Origin: Bacteroidota bacterium
GTDB taxonomy: Bacteria; Bacteroidota; Bacteroidia; AKYH767-A; OLB10
DNA: 46,079 nt
Assembly (NCBI GenBank): GCA_025352785.1
Contig: JANXSD010000061.1
Coordinates: 1 to 46,079 of the forward strand
Direction of reading: 5' to 3'
Position numbers and translations under genes: made by a program. The notes under the pieces are model-generated. The model worked only from the letters and a program-made list of their open reading frames with translations. It did no database searches and had not been told where the DNA came from. Below are positions 1-17,208 of the stretch, in pieces (the stretch's first letter is position 1; the number at the start of each line of letters is the position of its first letter).

Positions 1-496
1 GTGTTTTTGATTTTGTACTACGTCCTTGTGTACCACCTTCTTTTTTGCTGTTATGTTTATTCTTTTCTTTGCCACCCACATACGACTCATCAATTTCTAT
101 TGGCTCACTACCAACAATAGACTTGAAATTTTCATGTTCAAAAGCATAGCGTAAACGGTGCAAAAGAAACCACGCTGATTTTTGCGTTACATCAATATCC
201 TTTGCTAACTGGTGCGAACTAATGCCCTTCTTATGGCTAGAGAATACATACAATGCCATGAACCACTTTTGCAATGGAATCTTAGTATTATCAAAAATAG
301 TTCCTGTACGGACGTTAAAATACTTTCCCGACTCTTTGCATTTGTACTTATTGCCCGCACATTTATATATCTTTGATTCAGCATTAAAAGGAGATACAAT
401 TTCACCATTCCAACGTAATCTCTCTAAGTGAGAAATACAAGACTGTTCGTCAGGAAATGCCTTAATTAAATCGAGTATGCTTTTGAATTCCGTCAT
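1..496 (-). CDS. IS1595-family (ISXO2-like) transposase, partial
   Basis: The reading frame starts at an ATG at 496 and runs off the left edge of the window, so only the N-terminal ~165 residues are visible. The order fits IS1595-family DDE-type transposases: an N-terminal DNA-binding/zinc-ribbon-like part with Cys residues (CAGNKYKCKES), then the family-typical stretch FNVRTGTIFDNTKIPLQKW, an HTH-like segment (SSHQLAKDIDVTQKSAWFLL), and the start of the catalytic domain with IEIDESYVGGKEKNKH, which holds the first catalytic Asp. The frame is intact as far as it can be seen. Whether the element is complete cannot be judged because its other end lies outside. IS1595 assignment rests on motif recognition; the family is confident, the subgroup is not. 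Confidence 0.88.
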   Translation of the reverse strand, partial: MTEFKSILDLIKAFPDEQSCISHLERLRWNGEIVSPFNAESKIYKCAGNKYKCKESGKYFNVRTGTIFDNTKIPLQKWFMALYVFSSHKKGISSHQLAKDIDVTQKSAWFLLHRLRYAFEHENFKSIVGSEPIEIDESYVGGKEKNKHNSKKEGGTQGRSTKSKT

Positions 497-13032: not shown

Positions 13033-14160
13033 ATGTTCGAACTATTAAATAGTGTATTTAAAACAAAATTCAAGCTAAGAATTCTTGTTATACTTTTCTC
13101 GTTTCATTCAATAGTGATGTATGCGCAAGAGACGAATGATAATTTCGGAATGGCATATCAAGATTACCGTAATTACTTATACTTCTTTAAAGATGGAATG
13201 CCACAGCAACTGGAATCACAAGTGGTACGAAACTTTAGCTCAAAGGGTGAAATCGCAGGTTATGTAAATAGTGCTAACAATCTAATTGCGTATTACAATG
13301 GTGAAAAAACTGATTTGGGAGATGCAACTAATACAACATTTAACCTCACCAATCATTTACTAATATATCAACGTGACCAAGTACTTGGGGTTTTTGATAA
13401 AGGAAAATTAACTCGGCTTACTTATTTTGTGCGTGATTATAAAATTAATGATGAACTAATCGCTTTTCGTGACCAAAATATTGATATTTTGAAATTGTAT
13501 TACAACGGTAAAGTACAAGATTTAGAATACACACTAATTGGCTCTTTAGGAGCATATAAAGTTGGCAAGAATACGGTCGCATTTATGAGCAGTTCTGGAT
13601 ATTTTAAAATATTTGATGACGGTCAGGTTTTTGAGATTGATAATATTGCTCCACTGCAATTTGATGCTGGGAAAAATATTGTTGGTTATGTGGATGGATC
13701 ACAACAATCGTTAAATGTTTTTTACAATACAAAAGTTTTAACACTTGAGCCAATCAAACCTTTATCTTTCCAGGTAGGTGATGATCTGATGGCTTATGTA
13801 TCAGATGAAGGATATTTTAAAATATTTACACAAGGAAAATTACTTAAAGCGGAATCGTATGCTCCAGATTTTTACCAAGTATTAAATTCATCCGTCTTGT
13901 TTTTTGCCGATAACAAATTGCAAGTATTGCAAAATGGCATTCGTTACGAGCTAGATGATTTTAAACCCTTGAGTTATAAGATGAGTGAGAACGCCATAGC
14001 ATGGCAAGACCCTGCAAAACGTCTTCATGTTTTTGTTAATGGGCATGTTAAATCAGTAACTTCCGAAATATTTGTTGGATACGAATTAAATGGTGACATT
14101 CTCCGATATCAATTGGAAGATGGGACATCGCATATTTATTTTAATGGCAAGAATTATTGA
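13033..14160 (+). CDS. exported hypothetical protein, repeat-containing, operon with RemB-like gene
   Basis: A 375-residue protein with an N-terminal hydrophobic signal (residues ~15-31, ending VMYAQE). The mature part has a repeated pattern of about 45-50 residues of beta-strand type with YNGK/FDKGK/YFKIFDDG/YFKIFTQGK turns (for example NTVAFMSSSGYFKIFDDGQ and DLMAYVSDEGYFKIFTQGK), suggesting a beta-propeller-like fold. No catalytic motif is evident. It lies 12 nt after the OmpA lipoprotein and its stop (TGA at 14158-14160) is 2 nt before the ATG of the next gene, so the three are probably translated from one mRNA. It is known to me only as a type of Bacteroidota periplasmic/surface protein seen near RemB-like genes; function unknown. 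Confidence 0.82.
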   Translation: MFELLNSVFKTKFKLRILVILFSFHSIVMYAQETNDNFGMAYQDYRNYLYFFKDGMPQQLESQVVRNFSSKGEIAGYVNSANNLIAYYNGEKTDLGDATNTTFNLTNHLLIYQRDQVLGVFDKGKLTRLTYFVRDYKINDELIAFRDQNIDILKLYYNGKVQDLEYTLIGSLGAYKVGKNTVAFMSSSGYFKIFDDGQVFEIDNIAPLQFDAGKNIVGYVDGSQQSLNVFYNTKVLTLEPIKPLSFQVGDDLMAYVSDEGYFKIFTQGKLLKAESYAPDFYQVLNSSVLFFADNKLQVLQNGIRYELDDFKPLSYKMSENAIAWQDPAKRLHVFVNGHVKSVTSEIFVGYELNGDILRYQLEDGTSHIYFNGKNY

Positions 14161-14162
14161 CA

Positions 14163-15809
14163 ATGAAAAACAATAACGTAGTAAAATTTTTACAATTTAA
14201 TATTTCTCTTAAAGGCATCTCTATGCTCTTAATGAGTTTACTTATGATCAATAAAATGGCGATAGCGCAAAATGCTTTTTTGCCTTTGAGCAATCCAGTT
14301 GAAGGACTTTATGAACCATACATAAATGCTGTAGGCTCTACTGTTCATACTTCTGGTAAACCGCTATTATTAAAAGATGTGGAATCTTCCACTCCTTTTG
14401 ATAGTTTGAATACCTCCAGAGTAAAGGATAATAAATTTACAAGAACATTAGTAGGAAGAAAATTATTTAAAGAACATCTTTTAAAAGTGGAAGAAGATGA
14501 TGTGAAAATATTTCTTGATCCAGTGTTGGAATTTTCTGGTGGACAAGATCAAGAAAACAATAAAAATTTCACTACGAATACTAGAGGTTTATGGATAAGT
14601 GGATCTGTAGGAAAGCGGTTTTCATTCAGTACTACTTTTTATGAAAATCAATCAAGCTTTCCTACCTATTTAGATAGTGTGGTACGAAAAACAAGAGTTG
14701 TTCCTGGGCAAGGAAGAGTAAAGAATTTCGAAAATAATTCATTCGATTATGCTGCTGCATCAGGAACAATTAGTTTTCAATTGAATAAACACTTTACTTT
14801 TCAATTTGGGCATGATAAAGTTTTTTTTGGTGATGGATATCGTTCTTTGTTGTTGTCAGATAATGCATTTAATTATCCTTTCGTTAAGATTGTTACCGAC
14901 ATTTGGAAAGTCCGCTATACAAATGTTTTTGCGGAGATGCGTGATCTTGATACATTATCACATAATGACGACAAACCTTTTCGCAAAAAATATGCATCAT
15001 TTCATTATTTAGATGTGAATTTGGGAAAACGTGCTACTGTTGGAATATTCGAAGCTGTGGTTTGGCATTCGGATTCTACAGGAGCAAGAGGATTCGATTT
15101 CGGTTACATGAATCCATTAATTTTTTTCCGACCAGTAGAATTTTCAATTGGATCACCTGATAATGTATTGTTAGGAATAAATTGGAAATATAAATTAAGT
15201 AGTAGTGTTCAACTTTATGGACAAATTATGCTTGATGAATTTGTATTAAAAGAAGTTAAATCAGGAAATGGATGGTGGGCTAATAAGCAAGGGTTGCAAG
15301 GTGGGTTTAAATCATTCAATACGTTTGGTGTGAAAAATTTAAAGTTACAAGGTGAAGTAAATTATGTTCGCCCGTATTCCTATCAGCATAGAGAAGTAAT
15401 TGGAAATTATGGGCATTATCGCCAAGCGTTAGCGCATCCACTAGGCGCAAATTTCTGGGAAGCTATTGGCTTTATAAACTACGCTTGGAAAGGGTTTGAT
15501 ATTTCTGCACGATTAAGTTATGCAGAAGTTGGATACGATACTGCTGGATTAAATTTGGGACAAAATATTTATTTGTCATATGATTCACTTAAGGTTAATG
15601 ACTATGGAAACAGAGTTGGACAAGGAGATAAACATCAAATTTTGTGGGCAGATCTCACCATTCATTATCTTATAAATCCGGCAACGCGATTGAGTTTGTT
15701 TGCAGAAGTATCACTACGTGATGTTAAAAATCCTTATGAAACTAAGGGAACCGTACTGGTGCAAGCTGGTATTCGTACAAGATTATTCAATAGATATTAT
15801 GATTTTTAA
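14163..15809 (+). CDS. RemB-like outer-membrane protein (gliding/capsule-assembly type)
   Basis: A 548-residue protein. The ATG at 14163 is preferred over an in-frame TTG six bases earlier that overlaps the preceding stop. A signal-type hydrophobic segment covers residues ~18-36 (ending MAIAQN). The body contains the beta-barrel-like features of RemB/Wzi-type proteins, notably FTFQFGHDKVFFGDGYRSLLLSDNAFNYPF, given here in parts: QFGHDKVFFGDGYRSLLLSD and AFNYPFVKIVTD, plus alternating amphipathic strands to a C-terminal aromatic residue (RLFNRYYDF). RemB contributes to gliding motility in Flavobacterium, and Wzi binds capsule at the surface. Here the role is inferred only from similarity of motif and from location beside an OmpA lipoprotein. 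The final Phe is typical of outer-membrane proteins. Confidence 0.78.
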   Translation: MKNNNVVKFLQFNISLKGISMLLMSLLMINKMAIAQNAFLPLSNPVEGLYEPYINAVGSTVHTSGKPLLLKDVESSTPFDSLNTSRVKDNKFTRTLVGRKLFKEHLLKVEEDDVKIFLDPVLEFSGGQDQENNKNFTTNTRGLWISGSVGKRFSFSTTFYENQSSFPTYLDSVVRKTRVVPGQGRVKNFENNSFDYAAASGTISFQLNKHFTFQFGHDKVFFGDGYRSLLLSDNAFNYPFVKIVTDIWKVRYTNVFAEMRDLDTLSHNDDKPFRKKYASFHYLDVNLGKRATVGIFEAVVWHSDSTGARGFDFGYMNPLIFFRPVEFSIGSPDNVLLGINWKYKLSSSVQLYGQIMLDEFVLKEVKSGNGWWANKQGLQGGFKSFNTFGVKNLKLQGEVNYVRPYSYQHREVIGNYGHYRQALAHPLGANFWEAIGFINYAWKGFDISARLSYAEVGYDTAGLNLGQNIYLSYDSLKVNDYGNRVGQGDKHQILWADLTIHYLINPATRLSLFAEVSLRDVKNPYETKGTVLVQAGIRTRLFNRYYDF

Positions 15810-15819
15810 TTTTTTGCCT

Positions 15820-15876
15820 CCCTTCTTTATTTTATACCAAACGGTATTATACCATTTGGTATAAAATAAAGAAGGG
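15820..15876. repeat. 22-bp inverted repeat with two ATACC-N4-GGTAT dyads (downstream of ATPase)
   Basis: Positions 15820-15841 and 15855-15876 are perfect 22-bp inverted complements with a 13-nt centre. Inside are two 14-bp dyads, ATACCAAACGGTAT (15834-15847) and ATACCATTTGGTAT (15849-15862), one base apart. It lies between the 3' ends of the RemB-like gene and the ATPase gene and could terminate both. A 22-bp stretch (15843-15864) is repeated exactly at 17172-17193 on the other side of the ATPase. Confidence 0.85.
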
Positions 15877-15920
15877 AAAATTTATGTTTTTTATCTCAGC
15901 TAACACTATTCATTTTAGCA

Positions 15921-15963
15921 ACATTGCAATTTCAGATTTTTAGTAAGTGACATCTTGCAATGT
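15921..15963. repeat. short inverted repeat in the ATPase 3' flank
   Basis: ACATTGCAA (15921-15929) and TTGCAATGT (15955-15963) are perfect 9-bp inverted complements separated by 25 nt. Function unknown; it lies between the large inverted repeat and the ATPase stop. Confidence 0.45.
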
Positions 15964-16000
15964 TTGATATTTATGCATAGAATACACTTTGTGAAGTCGA

Positions 16001-17149
16001 TCAAATTGAATATGACTGATTAAAATATTGTTTTTTAAACCAAAGTTCAAATGCGGGATCAACAAATTCAAATTTGTTATTAATCTCGTGAATTATATCA
16101 TTGTTAATTAAAACAGTTTTATTTTTAATTACATTATTGGGGGTACCTAGTTGATGCTTCTGCATAACTGTATTACTTGTAAATTGTGTTTCCCCTTTAG
16201 CTACCGCTTTTAATAAATTAAGTTGTGTTGTACTAATGCTTTCCGTTTCTTTTTGATATAAGGGTGAATTCGCATTAATTAGTTCGTTTAAAGCATTTCC
16301 TACTGTCGTTAATGTTGCCTTTCTGTGTGTTAAATTCCAAGTATAGTGTGAAAGTTGCTGAACATACCAAGAGTGATTTTTCATCATCAAAGGAATAAGT
16401 AATGCCGTTTTTTCATCAATTTGCTTTCCTGCTTTTATAAAGCTTTTCGTAATAAATGTAACCCATTTTTTCTGCTCTATTTTTTTTAGTAATATGATGT
16501 CACCAAAGCGATAAAATGGTTTGGATGGGTTGTTGAAGATGTCCGTCATCATGTGACGCTTACTTCCATAAAGACAATAAGTCACCGATTTCTGTCGTTG
16601 CCAACAAGCTCTCAGTTTTTTTTCAAAAGCAATATAGTTACTAAACGATGAAAGATTCTGAAATTCATCTAAACATATTATGAATTTAATTCCTCTCTTT
16701 TTTGCAATTATTTCAGGTAGATTTAAAACTTCATCACTATTTTTCTTTAATTCTTTCCAATCAAAACTTAAACTAAAATCTGATTGGGGTTCAATTCCTA
16801 AACTTAATGTAGGAATTAATTTTTTGAAAAACTCTCTCCCACTTAGCATCCATTCTTGCCATTTACTTGAAGAGGACTTAATAACTTCGCGAGCAAATGT
16901 CTCTAAAAACTCTTCTTCACTACCTATTGAAAATAAATCAATAATTACGGTTTTTGTTTTTTTTTCTTTTCGATTAATATCATGAATAACCTTTTCTACT
17001 AATGATGATTTCCCCCATCTCCTAGGAGATATTATTGTTGTATTTATGCCGTTTAATAGATTACTTCTGAGTTTCGCAGATTCATCTTCTCTATTAGTGA
17101 AGGAGTGAATGCTAACTGTAGTTCCGTAAATAAAGGGCGAATCTTTCAT
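16001..17149 (-). CDS. AAA ATPase of the archaeal-type/STAND-like group
   Basis: A 382-residue single-gene ATPase. It starts with the family-typical FIYGTTVSIHSFTNREDE, followed by Walker A SPRRWGKS (residues 41-48), Walker B FIICLDEFQNL and a sensor segment YCLYGSKRHMM. The C-terminal ~80 residues form a winged-helix-like domain (STTQLNLLKAVAKGE) and end VDPAFELWFKKQYF, the typical tail of this group. These ATPases occur in variable copy number in archaea and Bacteroidota; their targets are largely unknown, and some are thought to be selfish or defence-related. Arrays of ATACC-N4-GGTAT dyads lie immediately upstream (12 nt before the ATG) and downstream, and no partner gene is present. A TACCTTTG box on the minus strand (17205-17198) falls inside the upstream dyads, so they may act as operator. 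Confidence 0.87.
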   Translation of the reverse strand: MKDSPFIYGTTVSIHSFTNREDESAKLRSNLLNGINTTIISPRRWGKSSLVEKVIHDINRKEKKTKTVIIDLFSIGSEEEFLETFAREVIKSSSSKWQEWMLSGREFFKKLIPTLSLGIEPQSDFSLSFDWKELKKNSDEVLNLPEIIAKKRGIKFIICLDEFQNLSSFSNYIAFEKKLRACWQRQKSVTYCLYGSKRHMMTDIFNNPSKPFYRFGDIILLKKIEQKKWVTFITKSFIKAGKQIDEKTALLIPLMMKNHSWYVQQLSHYTWNLTHRKATLTTVGNALNELINANSPLYQKETESISTTQLNLLKAVAKGETQFTSNTVMQKHQLGTPNNVIKNKTVLINNDIIHEINNKFEFVDPAFELWFKKQYFNQSYSI

Positions 17150-17160
17150 AGTTTAATCAA

Positions 17161-17208
17161 TTATACCTTTGGGTATTATACCATTTGGTATAATACCCAA
17201 AGGTATAA
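17161..17208. repeat. 48-bp near-perfect palindrome of three ATACC-N4-GGTAT dyads (upstream of ATPase)
   Basis: The arms 17161-17182 and 17187-17208 are perfect complements around a 4-nt ATTT centre. The palindrome resolves into three 14-bp dyads with one-base spacers: ATACCTTTGGGTAT (17163-17176), ATACCATTTGGTAT (17178-17191) and ATACCCAAAGGTAT (17193-17206), a 15-bp period. It lies directly upstream of the ATPase start and shares 22 bp exactly, in direct orientation, with 15843-15864 on the other side of the gene. Confidence 0.9.

Follow-up and report, generated by a model that had tools for sequence, protein, structure and literature searches.

The window, by which we mean the whole stretch of 46,079 nucleotides of Bacteroidota DNA that was analysed here, carries an AAA+ ATPase gene with short palindromes arranged in tandem on both sides of it. 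The features are collected in Table 1. There are exactly five dyads of the form ATACC-N4-GGTAT, each of 14 bp, with a gap of 1 bp between neighbours in the same array. The original prediction had described these five dyads, their placement and their 1-base spacing, and all of this was borne out both by the sequence and by a pattern scan of the host genome (3,456,483 bases, 3.46 Mb), which found no copies of ATACCN4GGTAT beyond these five. A single dyad of this type is not improbable by chance, the reversed control pattern likewise having five occurrences in the same genome. When the search is made with a double dyad, allowing up to two mismatches, there are three matches in the host genome and none for the control. 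It is the tandem 15-bp arrangement, rather than the single dyad, that exceeds chance.

Table 1. Features of the ATPase locus; nucleotide positions are those of the window, and residue numbers are those of the ATPase.
Feature	Position	Strand	Description
AAA+ ATPase gene	16001-17149	minus	ORF of 382 aa
P-loop	residues 41-49		SPRRWGKSS
Walker B	residues 159-164		CLDEFQ
Predicted C-terminal winged helix	residues about 307-376		AlphaFold2 model; recognition helix 337-349
Upstream array	17163-17176, 17178-17191, 17193-17206		three dyads, 15-bp pitch, 5' of the ATPase gene
48-bp palindrome	17161-17208		three upstream dyads and their edges
Presumed -7 box	17205-17198	minus	TACCTTTG, within the dyad farthest from the ATG
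Downstream array	15834-15847, 15849-15862		two dyads, 138 nt past the ATPase stop
59-bp near-perfect palindrome	15819-15877		arms 97% complementary; encloses the downstream dyads

The two arrays have 22 bp in common exactly and in direct orientation (15843-15864 and 17172-17193), as had been proposed, at an offset of 1329. They also match in inverted orientation over 36 nt (83%), and because the units are palindromic, the 'direct' orientation of the match carries little information. The gap from the upstream array to the ATG is 13 nt and not, as first given, 12 nt. The overlap of this array with a -7 box was also part of the original prediction, and it could be placed inside the outermost dyad, where TACCTTTG is presumably a -7 box of the Bacteroidota type, judged against the consensus of Bacteroidota promoters. 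The 59-bp palindrome around the downstream dyads is an addition to the earlier description; it sits between the ATPase gene and a convergent ORF on the plus strand (14157-15809).

The ATPase scores 28.7 bits against Pfam AAA_14, just over the cut-off of 27, and 22.2 bits against Pfam ATPase_2 (PF01637), under the curated cut-off of 33.2. A search of NCBIfam gave no name for it, and the Pfam domain search found no nuclease, transposase or recombinase domain in it. PADLOC returned only a weak partial match, and therefore no role in defence is claimed. An AlphaFold2 model, based on an alignment of 49 sequences, has a mean pLDDT of 87.5. In this model the winged helix is made up of helices 307-317, 326-332 and 337-349, strands 353-356 and 359-362, and a last helix 365-376, with a confidence of 85-95 per block over residues 307-376. 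The modelled fold has the AAA+ core first and the winged helix after it, the same order as in the ATPase_2 or SSO1545-like ATPases. The top structures found by Foldseek are 2qen (E 4.6e-13) and 2fna, which is SSO1545 (E 2.2e-12), and the next are Orc1/Cdc6 initiators, DNA-bound ones among them. On the basis of the model, the flanked gene is predicted to encode an AAA+ ATPase that resembles Orc1/Cdc6 and SSO1545 and has a winged helix at its C-terminus, a putative DNA-binding domain.

The dyads recur beside related genes. One scan covered 57 related loci, mostly full-length homologues with 41-84% identity, and nearly all of them have an upstream array. For scoring of the arrays, a set of 92 homologues in total was used, after removal of near-duplicates. 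A geometry scan of these 92 loci found tandem 14-bp dyads to be enriched at the 15-bp pitch only: at this pitch 47 of the 92 have at most one mismatch in 10 arm pairs, compared to 1-3 of 92 after dinucleotide shuffling and, in five draws at random from other parts of these loci, 0 of 92. With up to two mismatches in 10 arm pairs allowed, 54 of the 55 nearest homologues, which have 41-100% identity, carry an array 5' of the gene. Near homologues lacking such dyads would have spoken against the original prediction. Some homologues have more units, there being four or more in L051, L052 and L008; by eye, L008 and L010 (about 27% identity) have a similar series of units. Among the most distant homologues, with about 25-31% identity, many have no clear array in the geometry scan. 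Conserved palindromic sites are thus found across homologues in the ATPase gene's own promoter region, and the upstream array is, by these comparisons, a conserved part of the gene. It is worth adding that three loci (L098, L105 and L061) have in-frame stops or broken-looking genes, which suggests decay of the ATPase gene; L098 and L061 retain dyads close to it.

The half-sites differ between protein clades. ATACC is found in the clade of the window, while elsewhere there are TTACT/TTACC, TTACA, ATACA, ACACA, TAACC, TAAGA and others. In all of these types the dyads are 14 bp with a 1-bp spacer, so that the pitch stays constant while the letters change. Single columns of the protein were scored against half-site change, given overall divergence, and out of 332 variable columns the best predictor was residue 337, the first residue of the recognition helix (partial r 0.68). 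Proline at this position goes with ATACC, serine with TTACT/TAACC/TAAGA, and alanine or glycine with TTACA/ATACA. Two individual loci offer a contrast: L098 has 41% identity to the window protein, yet retains both GTP-NV and ATACC, and L063, which is related to the TTACA group, has GNGQT for GNANT in its helix and ATACA as its half-site, both being changed. The half-site classes are largely clades, and part of the co-variation is phylogeny; the distance between AAA domains correlates with the distance between half-sites (r 0.77). A sliding-window scan of co-variation did not pick out the recognition helix alone, windows in the P-loop region being equally high, and for this reason the claim of co-variation is based on the single-column result together with the contrasts seen in L098 and L063.

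The arrays are found almost exclusively beside this gene. In 32 genomes, picked for carrying close homologues of the ATPase, a tandem array is present in all 32, and all matches adjoin the ATPase except one weak match with two mismatches. Across 396 genomes of the phylum the strong array matches adjoin an ATPase, with a single exception in genome G330. The genomes that lack the ATPase have only isolated single matches with two mismatches, and the two of these that were inspected both lie inside coding sequence. Strong arrays at unrelated loci in ATPase-negative genomes, a case that the original prediction had raised, were not found among the 396. Given that nearly all array matches adjoin an ATPase, the array is a private site of the ATPase gene and not a regulon motif. 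The exception in G330, which does carry an ATPase elsewhere, is an exact tandem dyad pair with 0 mismatches (L085, G330:C20:134952-134980). It lies in the early region of a Mu-like prophage, near a transposase gene, and is possibly a captured operator or due to chance.

The overlap of array and -7 box seen in the window is found also in most homologues of the ATACC clade. Where an array could be recognised, its position relative to the closest TAnnTTTG box varies among the homologues: box and array overlap in 25, the box is between the array and the ATG in 21 and ahead of the array in 7, and in a further 18 the scanned stretch contains no box of this kind. This distribution is as expected for steric repression, and since the array can be anywhere around the promoter, a repressor would suit better than an activator.

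In 12 of 89 homologues, the window being counted, there is another array no more than 250 nt past the stop. These downstream arrays have the half-site type of their own locus and are mostly without a -7 box. The bracketing of the gene by two arrays, as originally described, therefore holds for a subset that includes the window, but not for the family, of which 77 of 89 have no downstream array, and this array is an optional feature.

The ATPase gene itself is horizontally mobile, as judged from its distribution. The best match in the host's family, among 23 other family genomes, has 27% identity, as against up to 84% for homologues outside it, and the ATPase is more similar than the conserved enzyme FabF from the same genomes (84 vs 76, 82 vs 71, 81 vs 66 and 81 vs 63). 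No neighbouring gene is conserved throughout the loci. Host sequence is duplicated on the two flanks of the ATPase in 12 of 71 loci, compared to 2 of 95 within-flank control pairs (p = 0.001), in a test from which the arrays were excluded. The repeats are 26-391 bp long, 77-95% identical, and often consist of one end of a neighbouring gene. Loci with such duplications are L020 (2790-2943 and 4167-4320), L021, L043, L054, L059, L135, L140, L068/L069 and L034. The duplicated ends, named by eye, include an HsdR-like end in L020, an Mfd-like end in L054 and a peptidase end in L140; in L068/L069 and L034 the duplicated piece comes from the beginning of the gene that follows. The peptidase locus of L140 is present in eleven relatives of its genome (G163), there with no adjoining ATPase. 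For the window itself neither a close strain pair nor an empty site was found: purN is present in most genomes of the family, but the neighbour from the far side of the ATPase was not found next to it in them. In homology-facilitated illegitimate recombination, one end is joined by homology and the other is not (PMC3240628); by analogy, entry of the ATPase gene looks like a process of this kind, in which it came in with a piece of a homologous donor gene.

Searches of plasmids and phages returned ATPase relatives all below 45% identity, and viral contigs and phage records contain more distant relatives. One viral contig (L148) has a 39% relative near terminase-like and tyrosine recombinase-like genes (by eye), on which basis members of the family may be present in phages or prophages. 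We note also that the ATPase lies beside type I restriction-modification genes in L020, L024, L035 and L042, and that an aroE-like gene (by eye) is directly 3' of it in L029, L032, L036, L040, L053 and L056.

We consider it likely that the dyads form an operator with several sites, to which the ATPase binds so as to control its own transcription, and that this operator is probably autorepressive. The reading is well supported because the array is conserved, its half-site tracks the recognition helix and it is found near-exclusively beside the gene, and to this extent the original prediction that the ATPase might bind an operator through a winged-helix domain of its own has held up in sequence comparisons. 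From this evidence we infer a mechanism in which the winged helix would read the 5-bp half-site, with a dimer of the ATPase on each 14-bp palindrome. Two to four or more palindromes would be filled side by side at the 15-bp pitch over the gene's own promoter, and the filled array would shut down transcription of the ATPase, tuning up being less likely. The ATP or ADP state may switch the occupancy of the operator or its effect. In the minority of loci with a downstream array, the window among them, this could be one more site at which the ATPase binds, acting by DNA looping or as a roadblock. Counting against an operator are that nothing in the present work identifies the nearest relatives of solved structure as transcription factors, that part of the co-variation is phylogeny, that the exact dyad pair in G330:C20 is unlinked to the ATPase, and that many of the most distant homologues have no clear array.

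Two other explanations would leave the ATPase out of the binding, and both are very unlikely. The palindromes could act as hairpins in the mRNA, as an attenuator, a terminator or an RNA-binding site. The predicted hairpins are indeed very stable, the 59-bp palindrome being, if transcribed, a strong one on either strand (z -8.5 to -11.5), and in the ATACC clade the units past the -7 box would be transcribed. However, in the 21 homologues with the array 5' of the nearest -7 box it would be outside the mRNA, separate 14-bp dyads at a constant pitch fit protein dimers and not a single hairpin, there is no U-run immediately 3' of the stems (that of the 59-bp palindrome included), and Rfam gave no match at the gathering score. 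Weak Rfam matches to miRNAs were dismissed, as they reflect the hairpins. It is just as improbable that the array belongs to an unrelated transcription factor of the host. This idea draws on the ATPase being a predicted binder of the array, but the ATPase gene takes the array, with its half-site type, along into distant hosts and unrelated neighbourhoods, virtually no other gene of these genomes carries the array, and there is no other conserved neighbour that would go with it.

The remaining alternatives keep the ATPase as the binder and give the array another purpose; we regard each of them as unlikely. In one, the ATPase would polymerise on the array, much as initiators do on iterons, for replication or remodelling of DNA, any operator effects being secondary. 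Archaeal origins beside orc1/cdc6 genes and plasmid iterons have evenly pitched tandem sites beside the gene of their binder, which the ATPase arrays recall; the Orc1/Cdc6 neighbours found by Foldseek, some of them on origin DNA, and the homologues with four or more units point the same way. Nevertheless, the ATPase copies are chromosomal and at unrelated places, no replicon genes were seen with them, no supporting context for an Orc1/Cdc6-type origin function was found at the ATPase loci, and the array is always tied to a promoter region, for which an operator is the simpler account. In the other, the two arrays would be the ends of a single-gene mobile cassette, as the original prediction had also suggested, and recombination would take place there, with DNA cut or joined at the dyads by the ATPase, perhaps aided by host factors. 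The arrays on both sides in the window and 11 other homologues, the clear transfer of the gene and the duplicated host sequence to either side of it could all be read in this way, and in L020 the duplicated sequence directly abuts the array. Most other loci with duplications have no such contact, the duplications being usually outside and away from the dyads, and their variable length and identity are unlike a fixed target-site duplication. Furthermore, the Pfam search found in the protein none of the domains expected of a nuclease, transposase or recombinase, scars of dyads without the gene were not seen, and a downstream array that most homologues do without is not needed, so that cassette ends are not supported.

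An operator of this kind has partial parallels. SSO1545 (PDB 2fna) and PAB2304 (PDB 2qen), both of them AAA+ ATPases from archaea and of the type described by Pfam ATPase_2, are the closest solved folds, with the same AAA+ core and C-terminal winged helix (TM 0.66-0.67, 17% identity), although the window protein falls short of the ATPase_2 cut-off; no operator array is described for either of them in the literature searched. The Orc1/Cdc6 initiators (PDB 2qby, 2v1u) also combine AAA+ with a winged helix, and their repeated binding sites, the origin recognition boxes, adjoin the binder's own gene. They differ from the present case in that identity is about 9-13%, and that the sites in the window are 14-bp palindromes at a 15-bp pitch over a promoter. 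Antitoxins, repressors and plasmid partition proteins that are autorepressors bind several palindromes over their own promoter, and the operator travels with the gene. The ATPase arrays resemble these in having several palindromes over the gene's own promoter and in travelling with it, with self-binding as proposed above, but here an AAA+ ATPase would act as regulator, encoded by a single gene with no partner, and the 15-bp pitch is kept while the half-sites diverge completely. A further comparison is with IniR of mycobacteria, a signal transduction ATPase regulator of 818 aa, which has an SSO1545-like AAA+ domain, a MalT-like domain and an SdiA-like DNA-binding domain, and is needed for induction of iniBAC (PMC5760070). 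It is like the window ATPase in joining an SSO1545-like AAA+ domain to a DNA-binding domain (a predicted one in the window protein), and unlike it in that an autoregulatory palindrome array is not reported there (PMC5760070).

The Orc/SSO1545-like ATPase group is widespread, and no assigned function for it was found in the literature. Nothing on arrays beside such ATPases was found in the literature searched, which was mostly that of open-access journals. As a wider and rather doubtful proposal, the genes described here could be a selfish or semi-selfish single-gene family of the Bacteroidota. Its product would be an ATP-controlled ATPase oligomer on its own array, with half-sites private to each clade that avoid cross-regulation, and the gene would enter new hosts with a flanking piece of a host gene, leaving duplicated gene ends. 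For the ATPase group, a target site of its own, next to the gene, would be a direct handle on binding specificity, on the role of ATP and on regulation, requiring one protein and one 60-bp DNA, and the natural series of half-sites, together with the variants of the recognition helix, would be a ready data set for the recognition code of winged helices.
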